Origin: a virus
Length of the DNA stretch: 24,867 bases
IMG/VR virus record: IMGVR_UViG_3300032323_001134
Coordinates: 1-24,867 of that record
Reading direction: 5' to 3' (one strand)
The notes under the pieces are model-generated. The model was not told where the DNA came from, did not search any database, and worked only from the letters and a program-made list of their open reading frames with translations. Shown here one piece after another: positions 2,102 through 17,958 of the stretch. A program made the translations under genes and the position numbers. How positions within the stretch are numbered: position 1 is the stretch's first letter; each line of letters opens with the position of its first letter.

Positions 2102-2844
2102 TCAATTATAAACCAACTTTATCTAAATCTCTAGATTTGGGAATGGACATCCGTAGCGAGCCGCAAACTGATCTGGAAAACTTGCTGTCACATCATAAAC
2201 ACCTGTTCCAGGATCGTGTGGTACTTGATTTAGCATGTTATACTGGAGTTTCAAGTAACTACGCAAAACATTGTAATGCAAAATTTGTAATCGGTGTTGA
2301 TTACGACGAAACAGCACTGTCCGTTGCCAAAGAAAATTTTTCAGGAGATCGGATAGAATTTTTGTGTCAGGATGTTGAAGATTCTCTTTTGTTACAACCA
2401 CTTGTAAATTTGTCGCAAGTGGTGATATCGTTTGGAGCAATATATCATTTAACTAACTCGTACAAACTATTAGAAACTCTAGCGCAACCTCACATTGAAT
2501 ATTTGTTACTTGACACATTGTACGGCCCAGAAACCAATAATCCTGAGGTATATTGTAGATTTGAAAATAAAATTATGTCAAACAACCAAACAAAACAAAT
2601 TATACCAAAGTATGCGCACAACCTACCTTGGTTTATAAAGCAACTTGACGTTTTTGATTTTGGTATGGACCGTGTAGAGAAATATTATACAACCACAGAC
2701 TTTTCCAAGGTCAAAGATCTTTCTGCAAATATGCGCATGACAATGAGATTTTTTAATCGAAAAAAATTTACAAATAAACAATCACTAACAGCAGATGAAG
2801 TTTGGGAATGGTCAGCTGATAACTTAATACAGGAAATACAATGA
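2098..2844 (+). CDS. Class I SAM-dependent methyltransferase
   Basis: The 248-residue protein has a Rossmann methyltransferase core. Motif I is VLDLACYTGVSS (residues 42-53), where the usual second glycine of the loop is replaced (ACYTG). The acidic ribose-binding end of strand 2 is VIGVDYD (64-70). A motif III/IV-like region (CQDVEDS, then VVISFGAIYHL) follows. The C-terminal part is helical and holds no extra domain I can name. It overlaps both neighbours by ATGA, and it opens a cassette with a glycosyltransferase, GalE epimerase, oxygenase and aminotransferase. A role in methylating a sugar or a small precursor is therefore plausible. The substrate cannot be read from the sequence. Composition is AT-rich like the gene before it. 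Confidence 0.85.
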   Translation: MINYKPTLSKSLDLGMDIRSEPQTDLENLLSHHKHLFQDRVVLDLACYTGVSSNYAKHCNAKFVIGVDYDETALSVAKENFSGDRIEFLCQDVEDSLLLQPLVNLSQVVISFGAIYHLTNSYKLLETLAQPHIEYLLLDTLYGPETNNPEVYCRFENKIMSNNQTKQIIPKYAHNLPWFIKQLDVFDFGMDRVEKYYTTTDFSKVKDLSANMRMTMRFFNRKKFTNKQSLTADEVWEWSADNLIQEIQ

Positions 2845-4040
2845 GAAAACTTTTTTACATGGGGCTGGAAAGTTATGAGGCCCGCTATACTCTACAACTT
2901 ACAGAATGGAATCGGCGTGTGTTTGACCGCCGTGGACTAGATGTAGTTTATGTGCCTGGTAGCACCATTGACAACACTCAAAGCATCAGTGTAGGTCAAG
3001 TGCTAGACGCACATGGTCGCAGTTACTTTAGTATGAGCCAGATGATGAATTTGGTACAAATGATGAGAAACGGAGAAGTCACAAATGAAGATGTTATCTA
3101 CTTTGAAGACATGTTTCAGCCCGGTATCGAGAGCTTACCTTATATTCTCGATCAAGTTGATCCTGCTCAGCGTCCTAGGATTTTTGTTCGTTGTCTTGCT
3201 CAAGCCATTGATCCTGATGATTTCGTTCATGTCTGGGGCATGGCAGAGTGGATGTCAACGTATGAAAAGATGGTTAACCAATTTGTCACAGGTGTGTTAG
3301 CCACCAACGAAGAGATGGTTGCCCATATGCGTATTGCCGGCTGGAAGGCGCCAATCTATAACATTAGTGGCCTGGCATTCGGCAAGGAAGAAGTTCTAGA
3401 ACGCATCGGTGGCGCTAAAAATATTAAACCATTTGAACAAAGACAAAAGCGTGTGGGTTTTGCCGCACGTTTTGACCAAGAGAAACAACCTGGATTCTTC
3501 ATGGACTTGGCCGAAGAGTATCAACGAGTTTATAAAGACGTGAGCTTTGCTGTGTTCTCAGGCGGACCGTTAAGGTCAAACAACCCTGACTATGTAAAAC
3601 GTGCTCGCAAGATGAGTGACGAAGGTACACTACAGATTTTTGAAAATCTTTCAAAGAACGAATACTATGCTCTGGTCAACGATACTCGTGTGTTGTTTAA
3701 TTGTGCTTTACAAGACTGGGTATCAAACACAGTAAGCGAAGCAGATACATTGGGTGCCAATGTGTTGTACCCTGCTTATCGTAGTTTTCCTGAAACCTTT
3801 GCCAATGATCCTGATCGACTCTACATTCCTTGGAGTGAAGATGACCCATTCAATAAGTTGGCGTTGTTGCTGGAGAAGCCACATCACAACATGGGGTTGA
3901 TCTCAGACTGGAACAATGGTACTGTGGATCGTGTTGTTGACATCCTTGAAGGCAAAGGCGAGCAATGGATGCGTAGCGGTGCTCGGTATCGTGACCATGT
4001 GGCTCATGCCAAATATCCTGTAGTGAAGATCGAATCATGA
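2841..4040 (+). CDS. GT-B fold glycosyltransferase (GT4-like)
   Basis: The protein is 399 residues, with a start overlapping the upstream stop and AGGAAA nearby as ribosome binding site. The C-terminal half carries the usual GT4 signals. KRVGFAARFDQEKQPGFF (203-220) has the Arg and Lys that normally hold the donor diphosphate (R210, K215). SGGP (240-243) closes a strand. SKNEYYALVNDTRVLFNCAL is followed by VSEADTLGANVLYP, where E300 is the likely donor-ribose ligand. The N-terminal half is a less conserved acceptor domain. No signal peptide or membrane anchor is seen, so it acts in the cytoplasm. Lying between a methyltransferase and a GalE-type epimerase, it probably transfers a sugar supplied by the epimerase. 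The acceptor (virion protein, DNA base or lipid) is unknown. Confidence 0.8.
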   Translation: MRKLFYMGLESYEARYTLQLTEWNRRVFDRRGLDVVYVPGSTIDNTQSISVGQVLDAHGRSYFSMSQMMNLVQMMRNGEVTNEDVIYFEDMFQPGIESLPYILDQVDPAQRPRIFVRCLAQAIDPDDFVHVWGMAEWMSTYEKMVNQFVTGVLATNEEMVAHMRIAGWKAPIYNISGLAFGKEEVLERIGGAKNIKPFEQRQKRVGFAARFDQEKQPGFFMDLAEEYQRVYKDVSFAVFSGGPLRSNNPDYVKRARKMSDEGTLQIFENLSKNEYYALVNDTRVLFNCALQDWVSNTVSEADTLGANVLYPAYRSFPETFANDPDRLYIPWSEDDPFNKLALLLEKPHHNMGLISDWNNGTVDRVVDILEGKGEQWMRSGARYRDHVAHAKYPVVKIES

Positions 4041-6545: not shown

Positions 6546-6559
6546 GGAGAAATAAATTG
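6546..6559 (+). promoter_or_regulatory. Ribosome binding site fixing the TTG start of folE
   Basis: GGAG at 6546-6549 lies 7 nt before TTG 6557-6559. No ATG or GTG in this frame lies at a better distance, and the protein begins with a plausible MTTFTTQDLE, so TTG is the best start. Confidence 0.7.
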
Positions 6560-7384
6560 ACAACATTTACAACACAAGATCTAGAAAATTCTAAAAAAAT
6601 AGTAGACGAAGCACCGTATCATCCTGGATATGAAGATGCAGTTCCTAATCCAACTGGTCTGGACGCAATGGCAGGCGATGGCGGATACCAAGAAGAAAAG
6701 TATCTAGGAAACTATCTTCGCTTCAAAATGAAACGTGAGGGCAAACGTTTCTGGGCAGGCGATAACATCAGCGATTATGTCACTGAAGAAAACAAAGAAC
6801 AACTAATCGATGAAGCCGCGGAAGCATTTGAAACAGTGCTTGATCGGTTGCTGATTGATCGTGAAAGCGATCCTAACTCACGAGGCACAGCACGTAGACT
6901 TGCCAAAATGTACTTTAACGAAATAATGGCAGGAAGATATGATCCAGCACCTGATGCAACCGCTTTTCCAAATGATAGCAAAGATCGTTATAGTGGTATG
7001 CTTGTTGTTCGTAGCGAGTTGCGTAGTATGTGCAGTCATCATCATCAACCAGTTTCAGGAGTCGCCTATATTGGAATCATTGCCGCGCAGAAGCTTATCG
7101 GATTGTCGAAGTACACACGCATTGCCCAGTGGTGTGCTCGGCGGGGCACACTACAAGAAGAACTGTGCAATGACATAGCACGTGAAATCATGAAGGCTAC
7201 AGATTCAGAAAATGTGGGTGTGTATATTCAAGCCACGCATGGTTGCTGTGAAAATCGTGGTATTATGGCACACAGTTCATTGACTCAAACTACGGTTCTT
7301 CAAGGTGTATTCCAAAGTGATCCAGCAACTAAGAAAGAGTTCATGGATAATATCAAGCTACAACAAGAGTTTGCGCCAAGGTAA
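6557..7384 (+). CDS. folE: GTP cyclohydrolase I
   Basis: This 275-residue protein starts at TTG. An N-terminal extension of about 80 residues precedes the conserved core. The core shows DPNSRGTARRLAKMYF (105-120), the zinc and active-site motif SMCSHHHQP (C159, H161, H162; family CEHH), GLSKYTRIAQWCARRGTLQEEL (182-203), and HGCCENRG (228-235), which gives the second zinc cysteine. It converts GTP to dihydroneopterin triphosphate, the shared first step of folate and 7-deazaguanine synthesis. Because queD and queE are also in the window, the deazaguanine role is preferred. It has its own leader with late-like sites, and a strong terminator follows at 7410-7459. Confidence 0.92.
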   Translation: MTTFTTQDLENSKKIVDEAPYHPGYEDAVPNPTGLDAMAGDGGYQEEKYLGNYLRFKMKREGKRFWAGDNISDYVTEENKEQLIDEAAEAFETVLDRLLIDRESDPNSRGTARRLAKMYFNEIMAGRYDPAPDATAFPNDSKDRYSGMLVVRSELRSMCSHHHQPVSGVAYIGIIAAQKLIGLSKYTRIAQWCARRGTLQEELCNDIAREIMKATDSENVGVYIQATHGCCENRGIMAHSSLTQTTVLQGVFQSDPATKKEFMDNIKLQQEFAPR

Positions 7385-7401: not shown

Positions 7402-7430
7402 TTGACCAGAAAATCCAGATTAGTTATAAT
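7402..7430 (+). promoter_or_regulatory. Strong sigma70-type promoter of the lipoprotein gene
   Basis: The -35 TTGACC is at 7402-7407 and a perfect -10 TATAAT at 7425-7430, with the ideal 17-nt spacer. The predicted start of transcription is near 7437, giving a leader of about 25 nt without a ribosome binding site. The same -35/-10 pair with a 17-nt spacer recurs at 24392 and 24495. Confidence 0.8.
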
Positions 7431-7459
7431 AATACTATTATAAACTAGTCTGGATTTTT
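7410..7459 (+). terminator. Long stem terminator of folE, overlapping the next promoter
   Basis: The left arm is 7410-7431 and the right arm 7436-7458, with loop ATAC (7432-7435). The arms pair along their whole length except for one bulged T and one G-T wobble. The A-run at the base of the left arm and T-run 7455-7459 give a bidirectional rho-independent terminator. The -10 box of the downstream promoter lies inside the left arm. The ATG of the next gene follows two bases after the T-run region. Confidence 0.8.
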
Positions 7460-7461
7460 CT

Positions 7462-9843
7462 ATGCAGTTTCAGAGAACTATTTTATCTGTTTCAATATCA
7501 TCTATGATGATTACCCTTGCTGGGTGTGGAGGTGGAGGTGGCGGTGGTGCAGGTGGAGGTGGCGGATATCTAAGAGCTGAAGTACCCTACCATACCCCAG
7601 TGCGTGTGGCCACTGCTATAGATCCACTAACCAAAGTTGATGGCGCGGCACCAATATTTGATACTTTCAATGCCAACGTCACTGGCAGTGGCAATGATAT
7701 TATACTAGCCGGGCGCCAAACACAATATGCCACTCCCGAAACCTGGAGCAATAGTCGACTTACTTTGCTGGCTTGGGAAGGCGGTACCTTAGTCGATCGA
7801 ACCGCACAATGGTTTCCTGGTGGTATCAACGAAATTCTAGGCACAGAACCCAGTGTGAAGTTTGCGGACTTGTTTAACACAGGACGACAAGACATGTTGG
7901 TAGCACCCAGCACCGACATGAGGCATTATGGACCTGGGTATGTATTTTCCAACCAAGGTTCCCACTTTAATCGTATCTCTATTCCATTGACCAATGTTTG
8001 GGCGCACGACAGTGCCATTGCCGACATGGACGGCGACGGTTTTAAAGATTTATTGTTTGTGGACTACGGTCCAAACACCACGTTGGCCATTAACAATCGA
8101 GTAAACAACTTTACGCCTTACATTGATAGTCGGGGTAATGCTGGAGATTTAAGATGGGGTGGTTCTAGTATTGTAGCAGATGATTTTTTACAGAATGGTC
8201 AAAAACAAATCATTGTTACCGACAATTCGTGTAATGTTGCAAATCCTGCTTGTAGTGATTCTCGCACAACCAAGATGTATAGTTATACTATCACTGGTGG
8301 CAATCTTAACTATCAATATGTAGGTGATTTACCTACTCCATTGTTAGATCACAATGTGCGTGTAGTGTCGCATGATTTTAACACTGATGGACGTCCCGAT
8401 GTTATAGTTTTCAGTCGGCCATTTGACTACACAGTCAAGCGTAGTGCCATACAATTTTTAAGCAATCAAGGCAGTGGCACATTTACTGATGTCACATCCA
8501 CCACTCTGGTCAACTACGACACCAACACTTACTCTACCTACAATCCCAAATTTCTTGATGTCAATGGAGACGGGCGCACTGACATCTTGGTCAGTGCCTG
8601 GGACTTTTCAGGAAATCATAACAGCACACAGGTATTGTTAAAAAGTTCAGACGGAAAATATGTAGCGGCTCATCAAAAAATATTCACAGACTTTTTAAAA
8701 CAAGCCGCATCTCTAACAGCCAGTCTAGGTAATGGTGCCAATGAAGCTAACAGTACAGTAAACATTTTTCAGGCACCGGATGGCAAGATGTATCTAGTGA
8801 CTATGATTGTGTATGAAGCCAACAATGACAAGAAAATGGCTGTGTATATGAGTCAGATGGGATCTCAGGTCACACTGACAGCACAAGCCGCTGTAGATTT
8901 AATTAAACAGAAATGGCCGTACATGAGCACCGCATCAGCCAACGCTGTACTAGCCCAGACTGCGGCTACTTACTGGAATGGTAGCGTGATTGATATAGAA
9001 GCCGCATTAAGACCGGTGGGTGCTCTTTCAATAGGTGCAAAAATACTGTCAGGACATGTGAGTGGTGTGGACATAGGATCAGGACAGATGATAGCTATGG
9101 ATGCTCTCCAAAGACCTTTCATGGTCAATGCTAGGCCAATGAATGTCACCGGACTTGATGCTTTCCAAAGAAACAACTTCATGGGGGCCGATCACGACCT
9201 TGCCAGCCCTGCTGAGTTTTTAACTGGGGCCAGGGCCAATGTTGTAAATGGTTTACGTATTGCCGGAGATCAATCGCCCAATAATCCCAATGGTGGACAG
9301 TACAGCATAGGTATTCCTGCAGTATGGAAGAAAGATTCGTGGGCGTTTGGAGCACAATACACACGACTCAATTTCAATCCTTGGGTGTCGTTTAGTGGTG
9401 CATGGGGATCTGTGCAGTCATCATCAGTGTTTGACAATGTGGTATCATATCGCCAGGGTGGGTTCGTTGCCAAAGCCAGTTTAATGTATGTAACTACAGA
9501 TATCAATCCAGGCCTGATTACTCGCATAAGTCCCACCATGGGTACCTGGGCCGAAGCAGGTTATCGCTGGGGTGATAAGAAAAACGACATGGGTATCTAC
9601 ATCGGGCAGGCACCTCGTGTGCTCAGTGGACAAGTTGAAGCCAATGTGCCCACTTCATTTGACAGCTCAGGACAATTAGTTTATACTAAGCAAAATCTAG
9701 ATATTCTAAGAACTCCTACATATTACATGCGAGGTGTTTATAGCAAGCAGATTGATAAGCGTACCCAATTCAGATTCAATGCGGCTACCAGCACTGTGGG
9801 GCAGTATCGCATTATGAATGAACTACTATGGAGTTTTAACTAA
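7462..9843 (+). CDS. Large lipoprotein with FG-GAP/VCBS-like repeats and C-terminal beta-barrel-like region
   Basis: This is a 793-residue protein. Residues 1-21 form a short lipoprotein signal with an Arg-containing head and lipobox LAGC, so C22 would be lipidated. A Gly-rich linker (21-35) follows. Residues 130-400 contain FG-GAP/VCBS-like repeats with calcium-type loops: ADMDGDGFKDLL (187-198), HDFNTDGRPDV (304-314) and LDVNGDGRTDI (365-375), plus a degenerate one near 134-146. Residues 475-520 (DLIKQKWPYMSTASANAVL, then IDIEAALRPVG) resemble the region after the catalytic Ser in autotransporter-type subtilases, but no protease triad is present. From about 620 to the end, alternating aromatic strands finish in LLWSFN, as in outer-membrane barrels. 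It probably sits at the cell envelope of a Gram-negative host. No ribosome binding site is seen. Confidence 0.8.
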   Translation: MQFQRTILSVSISSMMITLAGCGGGGGGGAGGGGGYLRAEVPYHTPVRVATAIDPLTKVDGAAPIFDTFNANVTGSGNDIILAGRQTQYATPETWSNSRLTLLAWEGGTLVDRTAQWFPGGINEILGTEPSVKFADLFNTGRQDMLVAPSTDMRHYGPGYVFSNQGSHFNRISIPLTNVWAHDSAIADMDGDGFKDLLFVDYGPNTTLAINNRVNNFTPYIDSRGNAGDLRWGGSSIVADDFLQNGQKQIIVTDNSCNVANPACSDSRTTKMYSYTITGGNLNYQYVGDLPTPLLDHNVRVVSHDFNTDGRPDVIVFSRPFDYTVKRSAIQFLSNQGSGTFTDVTSTTLVNYDTNTYSTYNPKFLDVNGDGRTDILVSAWDFSGNHNSTQVLLKSSDGKYVAAHQKIFTDFLKQAASLTASLGNGANEANSTVNIFQAPDGKMYLVTMIVYEANNDKKMAVYMSQMGSQVTLTAQAAVDLIKQKWPYMSTASANAVLAQTAATYWNGSVIDIEAALRPVGALSIGAKILSGHVSGVDIGSGQMIAMDALQRPFMVNARPMNVTGLDAFQRNNFMGADHDLASPAEFLTGARANVVNGLRIAGDQSPNNPNGGQYSIGIPAVWKKDSWAFGAQYTRLNFNPWVSFSGAWGSVQSSSVFDNVVSYRQGGFVAKASLMYVTTDINPGLITRISPTMGTWAEAGYRWGDKKNDMGIYIGQAPRVLSGQVEANVPTSFDSSGQLVYTKQNLDILRTPTYYMRGVYSKQIDKRTQFRFNAATSTVGQYRIMNELLWSFN

Positions 9844-9844
9844 C

Positions 9845-10240
9845 ATGACAGCCACATTAAAACAAGCCCAGGAGCAAGGTATTGCACCATGGGATGATGC
9901 GTATTTTGAAGATAAGAAGGTTTGGATCTTTAGAGATCGATATCCGGTGAGCCCTGGGCATTTGTTGTTTGTACCTAAAGTCAATACACCCGATAACATC
10001 ATGGATTGTTTTCGTTTGGCACAGAGATACGGCGAGTGGGTAGTGCTCAAAGGTGATGCTGATGCTTACAACATCGGAATGAACTGTGGAACGGAGGCAG
10101 GTCAAACAGTGATGTATCCACACATACACATGATTCCCCGTCGAACAGGAGATTGTGAAGACCCTGTGGGTGGTGTAAGAAATGTGATTCCAGGGCAAGG
10201 AAACTATAAAACTGGCGCCTATAAAAACCCTACTAAATAA
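9845..10240 (+). CDS. HIT-family protein
   Basis: This is a 131-residue protein, the usual size for HIT proteins. The frame is open from 9818, but those codons lie inside the lipoprotein gene. ATG 9845, one base after its stop, gives the natural N-terminus MTATLKQAQE. The strand and loop KKVWIFRDRYPVSPGHLLFVPK match the HIT N-terminal half. The family motif appears as GQTVMYPHIHMIPRRTGD, so the first His of H-x-H-x-H is Tyr, while the central nucleophile His and the last His remain. HIT proteins hydrolyse or transfer nucleotide phosphates (AMP-lysine, ApnA, sugar-nucleotide types). Its partner here is unknown, but sugar-nucleotide enzymes are nearby. Confidence 0.85.
   Translation: MTATLKQAQEQGIAPWDDAYFEDKKVWIFRDRYPVSPGHLLFVPKVNTPDNIMDCFRLAQRYGEWVVLKGDADAYNIGMNCGTEAGQTVMYPHIHMIPRRTGDCEDPVGGVRNVIPGQGNYKTGAYKNPTK
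10232..10240 (+). promoter_or_regulatory. Possible late-promoter-like site ACTAAATAA
   Basis: ACTAAATA matches T4 late TATAAATA at 6 of 8 positions and resembles the sites before folE. It overlaps the last codons and stop of the HIT gene, 85 nt before queD. The match is weak. Confidence 0.25.
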
Positions 10241-10324: not shown

Positions 10325-10849
10325 ATGGCAAAATATCTTTCAACAAAAACATACGGCAACGACAGAGGGCTGTCATGCTGTTTTAGACAATGGCGTTCAA
10401 CACATAGTCACTGCTCATTGCTACATGGATACTCAATTGGTATCAAACTAATTTTTGAATCAGAAACACTAGACGACCGTAATTGGGTCATGGACTTTGG
10501 TGGACTCAAAGCATTCAAAGAGTGGAGCGAATACATGTTCGATCATACTTTAATCGTTGCAGAAGATGACCCGTATCTGGAACGTTTTGAAGACATGGCA
10601 GGGTTAGGTCTACAAGACAAAGGTGGTGTTTGTGATGTTCGCATTGTTGAAGGTGTGGGTTGCGAAAAGTTTGCTGAACTGGCCTACAAAGAAATGGCCA
10701 CTATATTACACATCTTTAAAACCGGCAATACTTACTACTGCCCTAATGGGGGAACCTTTAACGCTAGATACCCTGTAGGATCAGGTGTTAAACTGCGTTC
10801 AGTAGAAGTTTTTGAACATGCTGGTAATTCAGCAGTGTATGAGGGATAA
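10325..10849 (+). CDS. queD: 6-carboxy-tetrahydropterin synthase (QueD)
   Basis: This 174-residue protein is of normal length for the longer QueD type, with ribosome binding site AGGAG before the ATG. Key motifs are CCFRQWRSTHSHCSLLHGY (18-36), with the nucleophile C30 and histidines H27, H29 and H34. The usual HGH is HGY here, as in a common QueD subgroup, so the zinc ligands are shifted. MDFGGLKAFKEW (56-67), FDHTLIVAEDDP (72-83), VEGVGCEKFAELAY (substrate-holding C-E) and the final VEVFEHAGNSAVY complete the fold. It converts dihydroneopterin triphosphate, the FolE product, to 6-carboxy-tetrahydropterin, the QueE substrate. A GT2 gene starts 2 nt downstream. Confidence 0.88.
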   Translation: MAKYLSTKTYGNDRGLSCCFRQWRSTHSHCSLLHGYSIGIKLIFESETLDDRNWVMDFGGLKAFKEWSEYMFDHTLIVAEDDPYLERFEDMAGLGLQDKGGVCDVRIVEGVGCEKFAELAYKEMATILHIFKTGNTYYCPNGGTFNARYPVGSGVKLRSVEVFEHAGNSAVYEG

Positions 10850-14557: not shown

Positions 14558-15117
14558 AAAAAGTTTATGTAAGTTGGACTGATGTACAAAGACAAACTCA
14601 AGAGATCATGCGTCAGATGCATCTAGATGGATGGCACCCAGACTATGTAGTGGGCATCACACGTGGTGGACTGGTGCCAGCCAATCTTATAAGTCAATAT
14701 CTAGATTGCCCAATGGAAACTCTTAAAGTGAGCTTGAGAGATGGCGGCACATGCGAAAGTAATACGTGGATGGCCGAAGATGCATTCGGCCATGAAGTCT
14801 ATGATCCGATGGCATCCAGTGGTGGCCAAAAAAACATTCTCTTAGTGGATGATATCAACGACTCTGGTGCCACTATAAATTGGATACGACAGGACTGGCA
14901 GAACAGTTGTTTCCCTAACGATGCTAGATGGGCTGAGATCTGGGGCAACAATGTGCGTATTGCCACCTTGTACGACAATGAAACCAGCGCCGCTGAAATA
15001 TATGTGAACTACACCGCAGAGACGGTAAACAAAGTAGCAGATCCACAATGGATAGTATTCCCCTGGGAAGAGTGGTGGAAAAACTGGCACCCTAACGAAG
15101 AGCATTACAAACTATGA
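14554..15117 (+). CDS. Phosphoribosyltransferase
   Basis: The 187-residue protein has the PRPP-binding signature ILLVDDINDSGAT (95-107), preceded by the strand VVGITRGGLVPANLIS (32-47), as in Gpt/hypoxanthine-type and related type I phosphoribosyltransferases. The hood and C-terminus are unusual and rich in Trp (VFPWEEWWKNWHP). It would join a base to ribose-5-phosphate or the reverse. A purine-type substrate is likely, and a 7-deazaguanine is a tempting guess because queE and queD lie nearby, but nothing in the sequence settles it. It is coupled by ATGA to the methyltransferase before and the radical SAM gene after. Confidence 0.8.
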   Translation: MKKVYVSWTDVQRQTQEIMRQMHLDGWHPDYVVGITRGGLVPANLISQYLDCPMETLKVSLRDGGTCESNTWMAEDAFGHEVYDPMASSGGQKNILLVDDINDSGATINWIRQDWQNSCFPNDARWAEIWGNNVRIATLYDNETSAAEIYVNYTAETVNKVADPQWIVFPWEEWWKNWHPNEEHYKL

Positions 15118-16511
15118 AACCATCCAATCTAAGGTTATATGTAACACCTGAAGATTATCAAGTATTTGCTGGCCCAGACTGGCCAGCCTATAATGATTTC
15201 TTACAAGGCAATCGTTCAAGCATTCCTAAGATCCAGGAAGAGATTGAAACCATGATTGCCATGAAAAAGAAAGATGGTATCAAATTTCCTATTTCTACCA
15301 AAACTGCTTGCCAAAGTAAATGGACCTGGAGTACCATCTATCTTAATTGGTTATCTACAGCATCTTGTCATCGAGTAAGCCCAGTTCCATTTACATTGGA
15401 AGAATTTGATAATTTTCATAACATTCCTAAGAAATTACAAGATCGACAGCTGATGTTGGCCGGCGAATGGCCCACTGGTGGTTGCGAATATTGTCGGGTT
15501 ATAGAAGATGCTGGCGGGTGGAGTGACCGACATCACAATCTTGAAATAAGAGATCTCACACCGCCTGAATTAGAAAACAATCCCACTGCTATTGAAGTCA
15601 GCCCTCGCATAGTAGAGATATTTGCACAGAACACCTGTAACTTGCAATGTACCTATTGTAACAGTGGGTTGAGTTCAAAAATTGAGCAAGAGAATCAAAA
15701 GTTTGGTGAGTTTAATCAAGGTGGTGTGGTGATACCTGTGACCACTGTTCCTACTGTTACTAAAGAATACTTTGAAAAGTTTATGTCATGGTTAGACAAC
15801 AACATTCTAACCTTAAAACGATTGCATTTGCTAGGTGGGGAAACATTTATACAGCACGAGCTTATGAGTCGAGTGTTGGATGTTATAGAACGCAATCCCA
15901 ATCCTGAGTTACAGTTTTGTGTGTTTAGCAATCTCAATGTTCCCGACAAAGCCTGGAATCTATACATTCCTAGAATACAAGATTTACAACATCGCGGACA
16001 TATGAAAGTTTTTGATCTTACTGCCAGTATTGATTGCTGGGGAGCAGAAGCAGAGTATGCTAGATCTGGGTTGAATTTAGCCAAGTTTGAAGAACGTTTT
16101 GCCTGGGCAGCCAGTCAAGGGGCTTGGCTACGCCTCAATGCCAACCAAACTATAACTTGTCTTACTATGAAAACCATGCCAGAGCTAATTGAAAAATTGG
16201 CACATTACGGCAAAAATAAACATATTGGACATTACTTCCAGTTCTACACTGGACCGCACATGTTCCAACATCCTAATATCTATGCCTATGATTTTTGGGC
16301 TGACGCTTTTGATCGTGTGTTTAAGATCATGCCCAAAGATACCAGCGAACAACGTGAAGCCATTGATCGCATGACAGGCATGCAGAAATATTTACAAGTG
16401 TTTACACACAACAACACAGACGAGATTACAAAATTACACATCTATCTTGATGAATTAGATCGCCGTCGCGGAACCAATTGGAAAAATGTGTTTCCGTATC
16501 TAGATATCTAG
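15114..16511 (+). CDS. Twitch-type radical SAM protein
   Basis: This is a 465-residue protein. The radical SAM cluster motif is NTCNLQCTYCNS (C175, C179, C182). An N-terminal set of cysteines, SCHR (C85) and GGCEYC (C124, C127), is followed by E-D-A-G-G-W-S-D-R. This fits the N-terminal twitch-like auxiliary Fe-S site of a radical SAM subgroup frequent in aquatic phages. LHLLGGETFIQHE is the GGE SAM-binding strand. The C-terminal third is helical. It probably modifies a peptide or protein, as many twitch/SPASM enzymes do, but the substrate is not evident: no obvious precursor peptide is adjacent except perhaps the 19-codon ORF at 16514. Confidence 0.85.
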   Translation: MKPSNLRLYVTPEDYQVFAGPDWPAYNDFLQGNRSSIPKIQEEIETMIAMKKKDGIKFPISTKTACQSKWTWSTIYLNWLSTASCHRVSPVPFTLEEFDNFHNIPKKLQDRQLMLAGEWPTGGCEYCRVIEDAGGWSDRHHNLEIRDLTPPELENNPTAIEVSPRIVEIFAQNTCNLQCTYCNSGLSSKIEQENQKFGEFNQGGVVIPVTTVPTVTKEYFEKFMSWLDNNILTLKRLHLLGGETFIQHELMSRVLDVIERNPNPELQFCVFSNLNVPDKAWNLYIPRIQDLQHRGHMKVFDLTASIDCWGAEAEYARSGLNLAKFEERFAWAASQGAWLRLNANQTITCLTMKTMPELIEKLAHYGKNKHIGHYFQFYTGPHMFQHPNIYAYDFWADAFDRVFKIMPKDTSEQREAIDRMTGMQKYLQVFTHNNTDEITKLHIYLDELDRRRGTNWKNVFPYLDI

Positions 16512-17076: not shown

Positions 17077-17958
17077 ATGGAAAAAATTACATACACAGAA
17101 ATATTTTATAGTTTGCAAGGCGAAGGCAAGTGGGCCGGAGTACCCAGTGTGTTCTTTCGCACATATGGCTGTAACTTCCGTTGCAAGAAGTTTGGTCGAC
17201 CTAGAGATGAAAACATTGAAGGACATAATCCTGAAGTTGTGGAGATCATCAAGAACATTGACAAGTATAACAAGTTTGAAGACTTGCCATTGGTGACGTC
17301 TGGTTGCGATACTTACGCCAGTATCTATCCTGAGTTCAAAAGATTCAATGATCAAGATCCTGTGGATATCATTGCCAACAAGATGCATGATCTCATACCT
17401 AACAATCGTTGGGATCAAGGCACAGGCGATGCTGTACATCTTGTTATCACAGGTGGAGAACCTTTGCTGGGCTATCAACAACTGTATCCTGAGTTGTTGG
17501 AATACTGTCGCAAGGCTGGCCTGCGTGATCTTACCTTTGAAACCAACGGTAGTCAAGAACTGTATCCGGAAGTTCGCGACTACTTATTTGAAGAGTTTAC
17601 ACGTCACGGTCGTGACTATGATCGATTGACATTCAGTGTAAGTCCCAAACTACCTTGCTCGGGTGAGAAGTGGGAAACAGCAATCAATCCTCAAGTGGTC
17701 AAGAGCTATGAAATGATTGGCTACACTTATCTTAAGTTTGTGGTGGCCACACGTGAAGATGTAGCTGATGCTGAACGTGCTGTAGAAGAATACAGGCATG
17801 CTGGCTTTGGTGGTCCTGTGTATTTAATGCCTGTAGGCGGTGTTCCGCAAGTGTATAACTTGAACACACAAGAAGTAGCAACCATGGCCCTAGAACGCGG
17901 TTGGCGTTACAGTCCCAGATTGCAAGTAGATATTTGGCGCAACGCCTGGGGCACTTGA
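17077..17958 (+). CDS. queE: 7-carboxy-7-deazaguanine synthase (QueE), phage type with insertion
   Basis: This 293-residue protein is longer than bacterial QueE (about 220). The N-terminus TYTEIFYSLQGEGKWAGVPSVFFR (5-28) is the hallmark QueE start. The radical SAM cysteines are C32 and C36 (GCNFRC) and C77 (SGCDTYAS): the C-x3-C-x2-C motif is opened by 40 residues between the second and third Cys, while the family's C-D-T is kept. VITGGEPLL supplies the SAM-binding GGE. LTFETNGS and SVSPKLPCSG follow as in the family. It turns 6-carboxy-tetrahydropterin into 7-carboxy-7-deazaguanine. It follows the membrane gene with no gap. Confidence 0.88.
   Translation: MEKITYTEIFYSLQGEGKWAGVPSVFFRTYGCNFRCKKFGRPRDENIEGHNPEVVEIIKNIDKYNKFEDLPLVTSGCDTYASIYPEFKRFNDQDPVDIIANKMHDLIPNNRWDQGTGDAVHLVITGGEPLLGYQQLYPELLEYCRKAGLRDLTFETNGSQELYPEVRDYLFEEFTRHGRDYDRLTFSVSPKLPCSGEKWETAINPQVVKSYEMIGYTYLKFVVATREDVADAERAVEEYRHAGFGGPVYLMPVGGVPQVYNLNTQEVATMALERGWRYSPRLQVDIWRNAWGT

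Follow-up and report, generated by a model that had tools for sequence, protein, structure and literature searches.

What would a phage use a 793-residue lipoprotein for, and from where would such a protein have come? The question is raised by an ATG-initiated open reading frame at positions 7462..9843 (+) of a 24,867-nucleotide stretch of DNA from a large phage of lake water (IMG/VR record IMGVR_UViG_3300032323_001134, positions 1 to 24,867, referred to here as the window), which encodes an FG-GAP propeller head on a tail resembling those of S8 autotransporters. An earlier note on this DNA had read the gene as a reworked autotransporter-type subtilase in which repeats replace the protease, and our analysis strongly supports that reading through the homology of the tail, the shared genomic slot and promoter, and the nesting of the propeller-bearing clade among proteases. 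What is new is an autotransporter-type S8 protein with its protease replaced, carried by phages.

The N-terminus is a lipoprotein signal peptide (7462..7527, +) with the lipobox LAGC (L19-A-G-C22; Cys22 at 7525-7527), followed by a Gly-rich linker (7528..7566, +) that has Gly at +2 and stays rich in Gly up to residue 35; the lipobox and the Gly run had both been described in the earlier note. Under the E. coli rule, Gly at +2 after the lipobox Cys is of the outer-membrane sorting type. C22 is invariant and the lipobox is retained in all complete relatives read, and the signal peptide, lipobox and invariant Cys are those of a bacterial lipoprotein. The head (7645..8856, +; about residues 62-465) was delimited using Pfam, AF2 strands and Foldseek. 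Two Pfam models exceed their curated cut-offs, PF13517 in five stretches (E 7.1e-19) and PF01839 (E 1.2e-8), which bears out the FG-GAP repeats claimed earlier. Four calcium-type loops lie within the head, all on the + strand: DLFNTGRQD (7867..7893, residues 136-144; D136 and D144 invariant), DMDGDGFKD (8023..8049, residues 188-196; D188, D192 and D196 invariant), DFNTDGRPD (8374..8400, residues 305-313) and DVNGDGRTD (8557..8583, residues 366-374; D366, D370 and D374 invariant). Repeats and calcium-type loops are both common to FG-GAP/integrin-alpha propellers (PF13517, PF01839), and the head belongs to this beta-propeller class. Foldseek matches of the head were propeller proteins, including integrin alpha and DDB1. 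For the full-length protein AF2 gave a poor model (pLDDT 57), whose best PDB matches, DDB1 and BBSome, indicate only the fold class "propeller" and nothing finer. No donor of the head was found among bacteria, a search of 299 Pseudomonadota genomes giving one weak match only, and the propeller head seems specific to phages carrying the FG-GAP form.

The combination of FG-GAP head and tail was found in IMG/VR viral contigs only, in about 38 contigs; successive, overlapping IMG/VR searches gave 8, 13, 24, 25 and 27 loci. Placement of the gene in a phage is borne out by the viral origin of the contig and by syntenic relatives of 315-344 kb that encode a T4-type Gp23 capsid protein. About 25 complete proteins, down to 29-30% identity (L125/L127), all have the lipobox, an FG-GAP-type head and the tail, and the FG-GAP form is present once per record in 11/11 records tested. 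Where dN/dS was computable against close relatives it is about 0.05, and the architecture is under purifying selection. The FG-GAP lipoprotein is thus a conserved family and no one-off, and conservation together with dN/dS rules out chance or artefact. An accidental fusion under no selection, which we regard as next to impossible, is refuted by the same data: no domain has been lost in about 25 complete relatives, some as distant as 30% identity, and dN/dS is about 0.05. The nearest relative differs between the two ends of the protein (L021, 97% in the head and 83% in the barrel; L010, 90% and 96%), which suggests continuing recombination among relatives. A tblastn search of cultured phages and plasmids gave no credible relative, the match in Dolichospermum phage Dfl-JY45 being weak, stop-crossing and of E 0.01.

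The tail consists of a junction with S8-derived C-terminal helices (8860..9021, +; residues 467-520, GSQVTLTAQAAVDLIKQKWPYM...), which are homologous to S8 proteins, a linker (9022..9297, +; residues 521-612) with a D...R.F motif common to S8 proteins, and a predicted outer-membrane barrel (9298..9840, +; residues 613-793). Residues 470-793 have no match in Pfam, NCBIfam or PDB sequences, and a first genome scan with the tail gave none either. A degenerate DNA pattern representing the S8 serine motif GTSMAAP, 12 residues and WPxM recovered eight bacterial or metagenome-assembled genome (MAG) loci, including L059 and L057. A profile built solely from FG-type phage tails gives a 110-bit match, spanning positions 10-335 of 341, to the tail of L059, a MAG subtilase (PF00082, E 2e-32). 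The phage tail aligns with L059 over 297 columns in hhalign (P 99.6%), and L059 aligns with bacterial S8 proteins over 296 columns (P 99.1%). The post-serine part of the phage tail can also be aligned directly with bacterial S8 lipoproteins (P 97.3%, E 1.8e-11, 86 columns); the phage barrel alone gives no significant alignment with the barrels of those lipoproteins (P 21.7%). Since L059 matches both the phage tail and the bacterial S8 proteins, the barrel part is linked through L059, and through the phage S8 forms described below. The tail profile A6 has matches in 36/398 Pseudomonadota genomes, mostly to its N-terminal third, and most of the bacterial S8 proteins read start with a lipobox and Gly run (for example LAACGGGGGG), a CGGGGG start as in the window protein. 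L059:1-4152 is itself a short MAG contig on which small genes of kinds common in phages lie beside the subtilase, so that phage DNA may have been binned with a bacterium here.

The C-terminal region of the window protein is therefore homologous to S8 autotransporter-type proteins, and the S8 catalytic domain with its D/H/S triad is gone: PF00082 and all other Pfam peptidase or autotransporter models are absent from the 793-residue protein, the Asp and His parts are missing, and the Ser is unconserved (12/21). A subtilase-like tail without a protease, as the earlier note had put it, is accordingly what the profile homology and the absence of PF00082 reveal, and in a profile comparison of the kind that it had suggested for residues 470-793, the FG-type tails match both L059 and the phage-encoded subtilase L129, at 125 bits the higher-scoring of the two.

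An IMG/VR scan with L059 identified 23 contigs, of which 22 were read, and 22/22 match the tail profile, some of them weakly; at least 22 IMG/VR contigs thus carry subtilases with a homologous tail. D, H and S motifs occur in nearly all phage S8 forms with a readable head (L142 yielded no Asp motif, and L151 is a fragment), and PF00082 was present in 5/5 tested. Three of these subtilases (L129, L130 and L133) resemble the window protein in the homology of the full-length tail, in their slot directly after folE and in a TTGACC-N17-TATAAT promoter (TTGACCATAAATTCC..., TTGACCAAAAAATCCG... and TTGACCATAAAATCC..., respectively, each with TATAAT), and around L129 and L130 the genes for QueE, glycosyltransferase and methyltransferase correspond to those in the window. 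They differ in having a D/H/S protease where the window protein has its propeller, and the nearest of them have a signal peptide without a lipobox, which implies that the lipobox either came in together with the propeller head or was acquired again. No S8 gene was found elsewhere in the large phage records that carry the FG form (0/11). Two other phage S8 subtilases of more than 1200 residues (L135:3830-7510 and L142:4528-8163), on contigs without the folE neighbourhood, start with LTACGGGGGGG and are apparently lipidated phage proteases, and in L129:4456-7848 the signal peptide and the protease are separated by a long, repetitive region rich in Ala, Glu and Lys.

In an unrooted tree of 63 tails, the FG forms make up one clade (100/100), sister to the L129-L132 phage proteases (98/91), with L059 (100/100) and then the L134 group (87/94) further out. 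Because the FG clade is nested in an otherwise S8 set, the tree is most simply explained by one exchange of the protease for a propeller. The junction can be aligned without gaps, S8 GTSQAAP...WPYM against FG (L/M)GSQ....WPYM, and the register of the S8 motif GTSQAAP falls at about residues 466-472 of the window protein. At this point Gln is kept in 17/21 and Ser in 12/21 FG proteins, residues that may be a vestige of the motif or a product of chance. Read most simply, homology, tree and synteny show that the head was swapped once, at the catalytic-serine motif, with the tail, promoter and gene position unchanged.

An AF2 model of the tail, built from 18 sequences, has a pLDDT of 73.5 and a pTM of 0.69, and its 324 residues are predicted as two helices followed by 11-12 long antiparallel strands, mostly with pLDDT above 80. 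Essentially all of its 50 best PDB matches are outer-membrane barrels, including FapF, OmpG, EspP and porins, with weak E-values (0.009-0.09) and TM scores of 0.2-0.5. The best match in BFVD was an FG-type phage protein, A0A6J5L9S5 (831 aa, 42% identity, E 8e-32), and the second an S8 form with a barrel tail, A0A6J5TBB6 ("Peptidase S8/S53 domain containing protein [uncultured Caudovirales phage]"; E 5e-8, TMq 0.59). By structure and sequence A0A6J5L9S5 belongs to the same family as the window protein; it is thus already in UniProt, under the automatic name "Repeat domain in Vibrio, Colwellia, Bradyrhizobium and Shewanella [uncultured Caudovirales phage]", with no stated function or subtilase origin. 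Many relatives end in F or W; the window protein ends in WSFN, without a terminal Phe, a point against the overall explanation given below. A closed barrel at the C-terminus is likely on the strength of this model and its matches. The barrel-like end proposed in the earlier note is upheld as regards the 11-12 strands and the barrel fold matches, with closure a matter of prediction and the matches weak (E about 0.01); a structure lacking a barrel, the result which the note had said would count against it, did not arise.

The gene has a sigma70-type promoter of its own (7402..7430, +; TTGACC-17-TATAAT, 11/12 consensus), which is found at the matching place in 17/19 relatives and justifies the earlier description of it as strong. 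A long inverted repeat (7409..7459, +; folding -24.2 kcal/mol) extends over the -10 box almost to the start codon; inverted repeats of -22 to -27 kcal/mol precede the start codon in L010, L021 and L014, and weaker ones do so in distant relatives. A transcript starting near 7437 would contain the right arm only. The repeat would consequently be folded in readthrough transcripts and unfolded in transcripts from the promoter, and could act as a switch that keeps transcripts arriving from upstream untranslated. The window contains eight TTGAC-N18-20-TANAAT sites where chance would give 0.27, at 907, 6484, 7402, 24392 and 24495 (+) and at 2581, 2714 and 23848 (-). TTGACCA is common to the sites at 7402, 24392 and 24495, the last two standing in tandem, and from these shared letters the three look like one phage promoter class.

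The constant left neighbour of the lipoprotein gene is folE, for GTP cyclohydrolase I (6557..7384, +; phrog_2197, E 4e-45), and the usual right neighbour is a HIT-domain gene (9845..10240, +; PF01230, E 1e-13). In most relatives the order is glycosyltransferase, GalE, FolE, the lipoprotein gene, HIT, QueD, glycosyltransferase and methyltransferase. Together with queD (10325-10849) and queE (17077-17958), folE (6557-7384) makes up a set of 7-deazaguanine (preQ0-type) synthesis genes that perhaps serve DNA modification. The protein encoded at 2841-4040 shares 67% identity with a protein from Synechococcus phage BUCT-ZZ01 (Kyanoviridae, from a lake), in which folE, queD and queE lie nearby but no relative of the lipoprotein is detectable. 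A large radical-SAM protein is encoded at 15114-16511, between phosphoribosyltransferase-like and cupin-like genes. No receptor-binding protein gene was recognised adjoining the lipoprotein gene. A large extracellular-type protein in a phage genome could be a virion component, either a receptor-binding or a decoration protein, but the locus lies between folE and queD, away from structural genes, the relatives are envelope proteases, and the lipoprotein signal, barrel tail and sigma70-type promoter also speak against this role, which we consider highly improbable. The gene also lies amid glycosyltransferase and sugar-nucleotide genes, and FG-GAP propellers are binding modules, as in integrin alpha; both would suit a displayed adhesin or glycan binder that altered aggregation, grazing or nutrient capture rather than blocking phages. 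The S8 form in the same slot, however, points to a target in the host envelope, and we judge this alternative unlikely.

Two further groups of known proteins offer close comparisons. NalP and SphB1 are lipidated S8 autotransporters (autotransporter Group 15) held on the cell surface by their lipid (PMC9289746). The window protein is like them in its predicted lipidated N-terminus, its passenger, its predicted C-terminal barrel and its S8-type post-Ser helices, and differs in lacking a protease, in having a barrel outside the Pfam autotransporter model and in being phage-encoded. T5 Llp and Cor are superinfection-exclusion lipoproteins of phages, located at the outer membrane, and Llp is expressed early (PMC9586334). 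The window protein resembles them as a phage-encoded lipoprotein with an early-type promoter and a predicted outer-membrane location; in contrast, Llp and Cor are small and have neither propeller nor barrel, and at 793 residues the window protein falls outside the small lipoproteins. Within open-access literature, we found no paper that describes FG-GAP lipoproteins or S8 autotransporters from phages.

These two comparisons pull in different directions over where the propeller resides. It could be periplasmic, tethered by its lipid in the outer membrane's inner leaflet with the barrel as pore or anchor, and act on envelope proteins from within, much as T5 Llp acts on FhuA. Llp does so from the periplasm (PMC9586334), the propeller with its roughly 400 residues is a bulky cargo for a 12-strand barrel to export, and the Pfam autotransporter model fails to recognise the barrel. 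Set against this arrangement are the S8 relatives NalP and SphB1, which are lipidated and surface-exposed (PMC9289746), and the retention of the architecture as a unit, a better fit to export, and we assign it a low probability. We favour surface display, which like lipidation and the outer-membrane barrel is a well-founded prediction.

The best explanation as a whole, and one that we consider reasonably probable, joins descent from a phage subtilase, head swap, surface display and exclusion. The protein descends from an S8 subtilase that was encoded by a phage and carried a predicted outer-membrane barrel at its C-terminus; in the lineage of the present phage the protease head of this ancestor was replaced once by the lipidated Gly-linker and calcium-type FG-GAP propeller. 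Judging from the consensus, host sigma70 RNA polymerase would transcribe the gene early from its own promoter; the product would leave the cytoplasm through Sec, receive its lipid at Cys22 and, having Gly at +2, go to the outer membrane, where the tail would insert as a barrel and carry the propeller to the cell surface or hold it there, in the manner of NalP and SphB1. The propeller would there bind or mask a ligand, probably the receptor used by the phage itself or a point of contact between cells, and this would keep out superinfecting phage and stop progeny from sticking to debris, as Llp and Cor do by other means, a last step which taken by itself we hold to be doubtful. The product probably coats or changes the surface of the infected cell, and superinfection exclusion or altered adhesion, both proposed in the earlier note, or a block to re-adsorption is plausible by analogy, because the promoter is of early type, the anatomy is that of an outer-membrane protein, and exclusion lipoproteins are known from phages. 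A protease head in the same slot would suit that purpose too, by cutting its target.

For annotators, the present analysis provides a handle on a tail that escapes Pfam, NCBIfam and PHROGs, and it ties a widespread, unnamed phage protein family to subtilisin-like autotransporters through a clean head swap at a fixed genome position. It is possible, at a little short of even confidence, that large lytic phages carry an early-expressed, type V-like outer-membrane display cassette for remodelling the surface of the infected cell, in which slot, promoter and barrel tail are constant and the head is exchangeable, being either a protease that cuts surface proteins or a lipidated propeller that masks or binds them. 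If surface display is true, the family would allow a direct test of host-surface reshaping by large phages that have no cultured model, and protease and propeller heads on one tail would offer a paired comparison of what that reshaping is for. Should the cassette exist as described, protease and propeller would be alternative answers to one problem.
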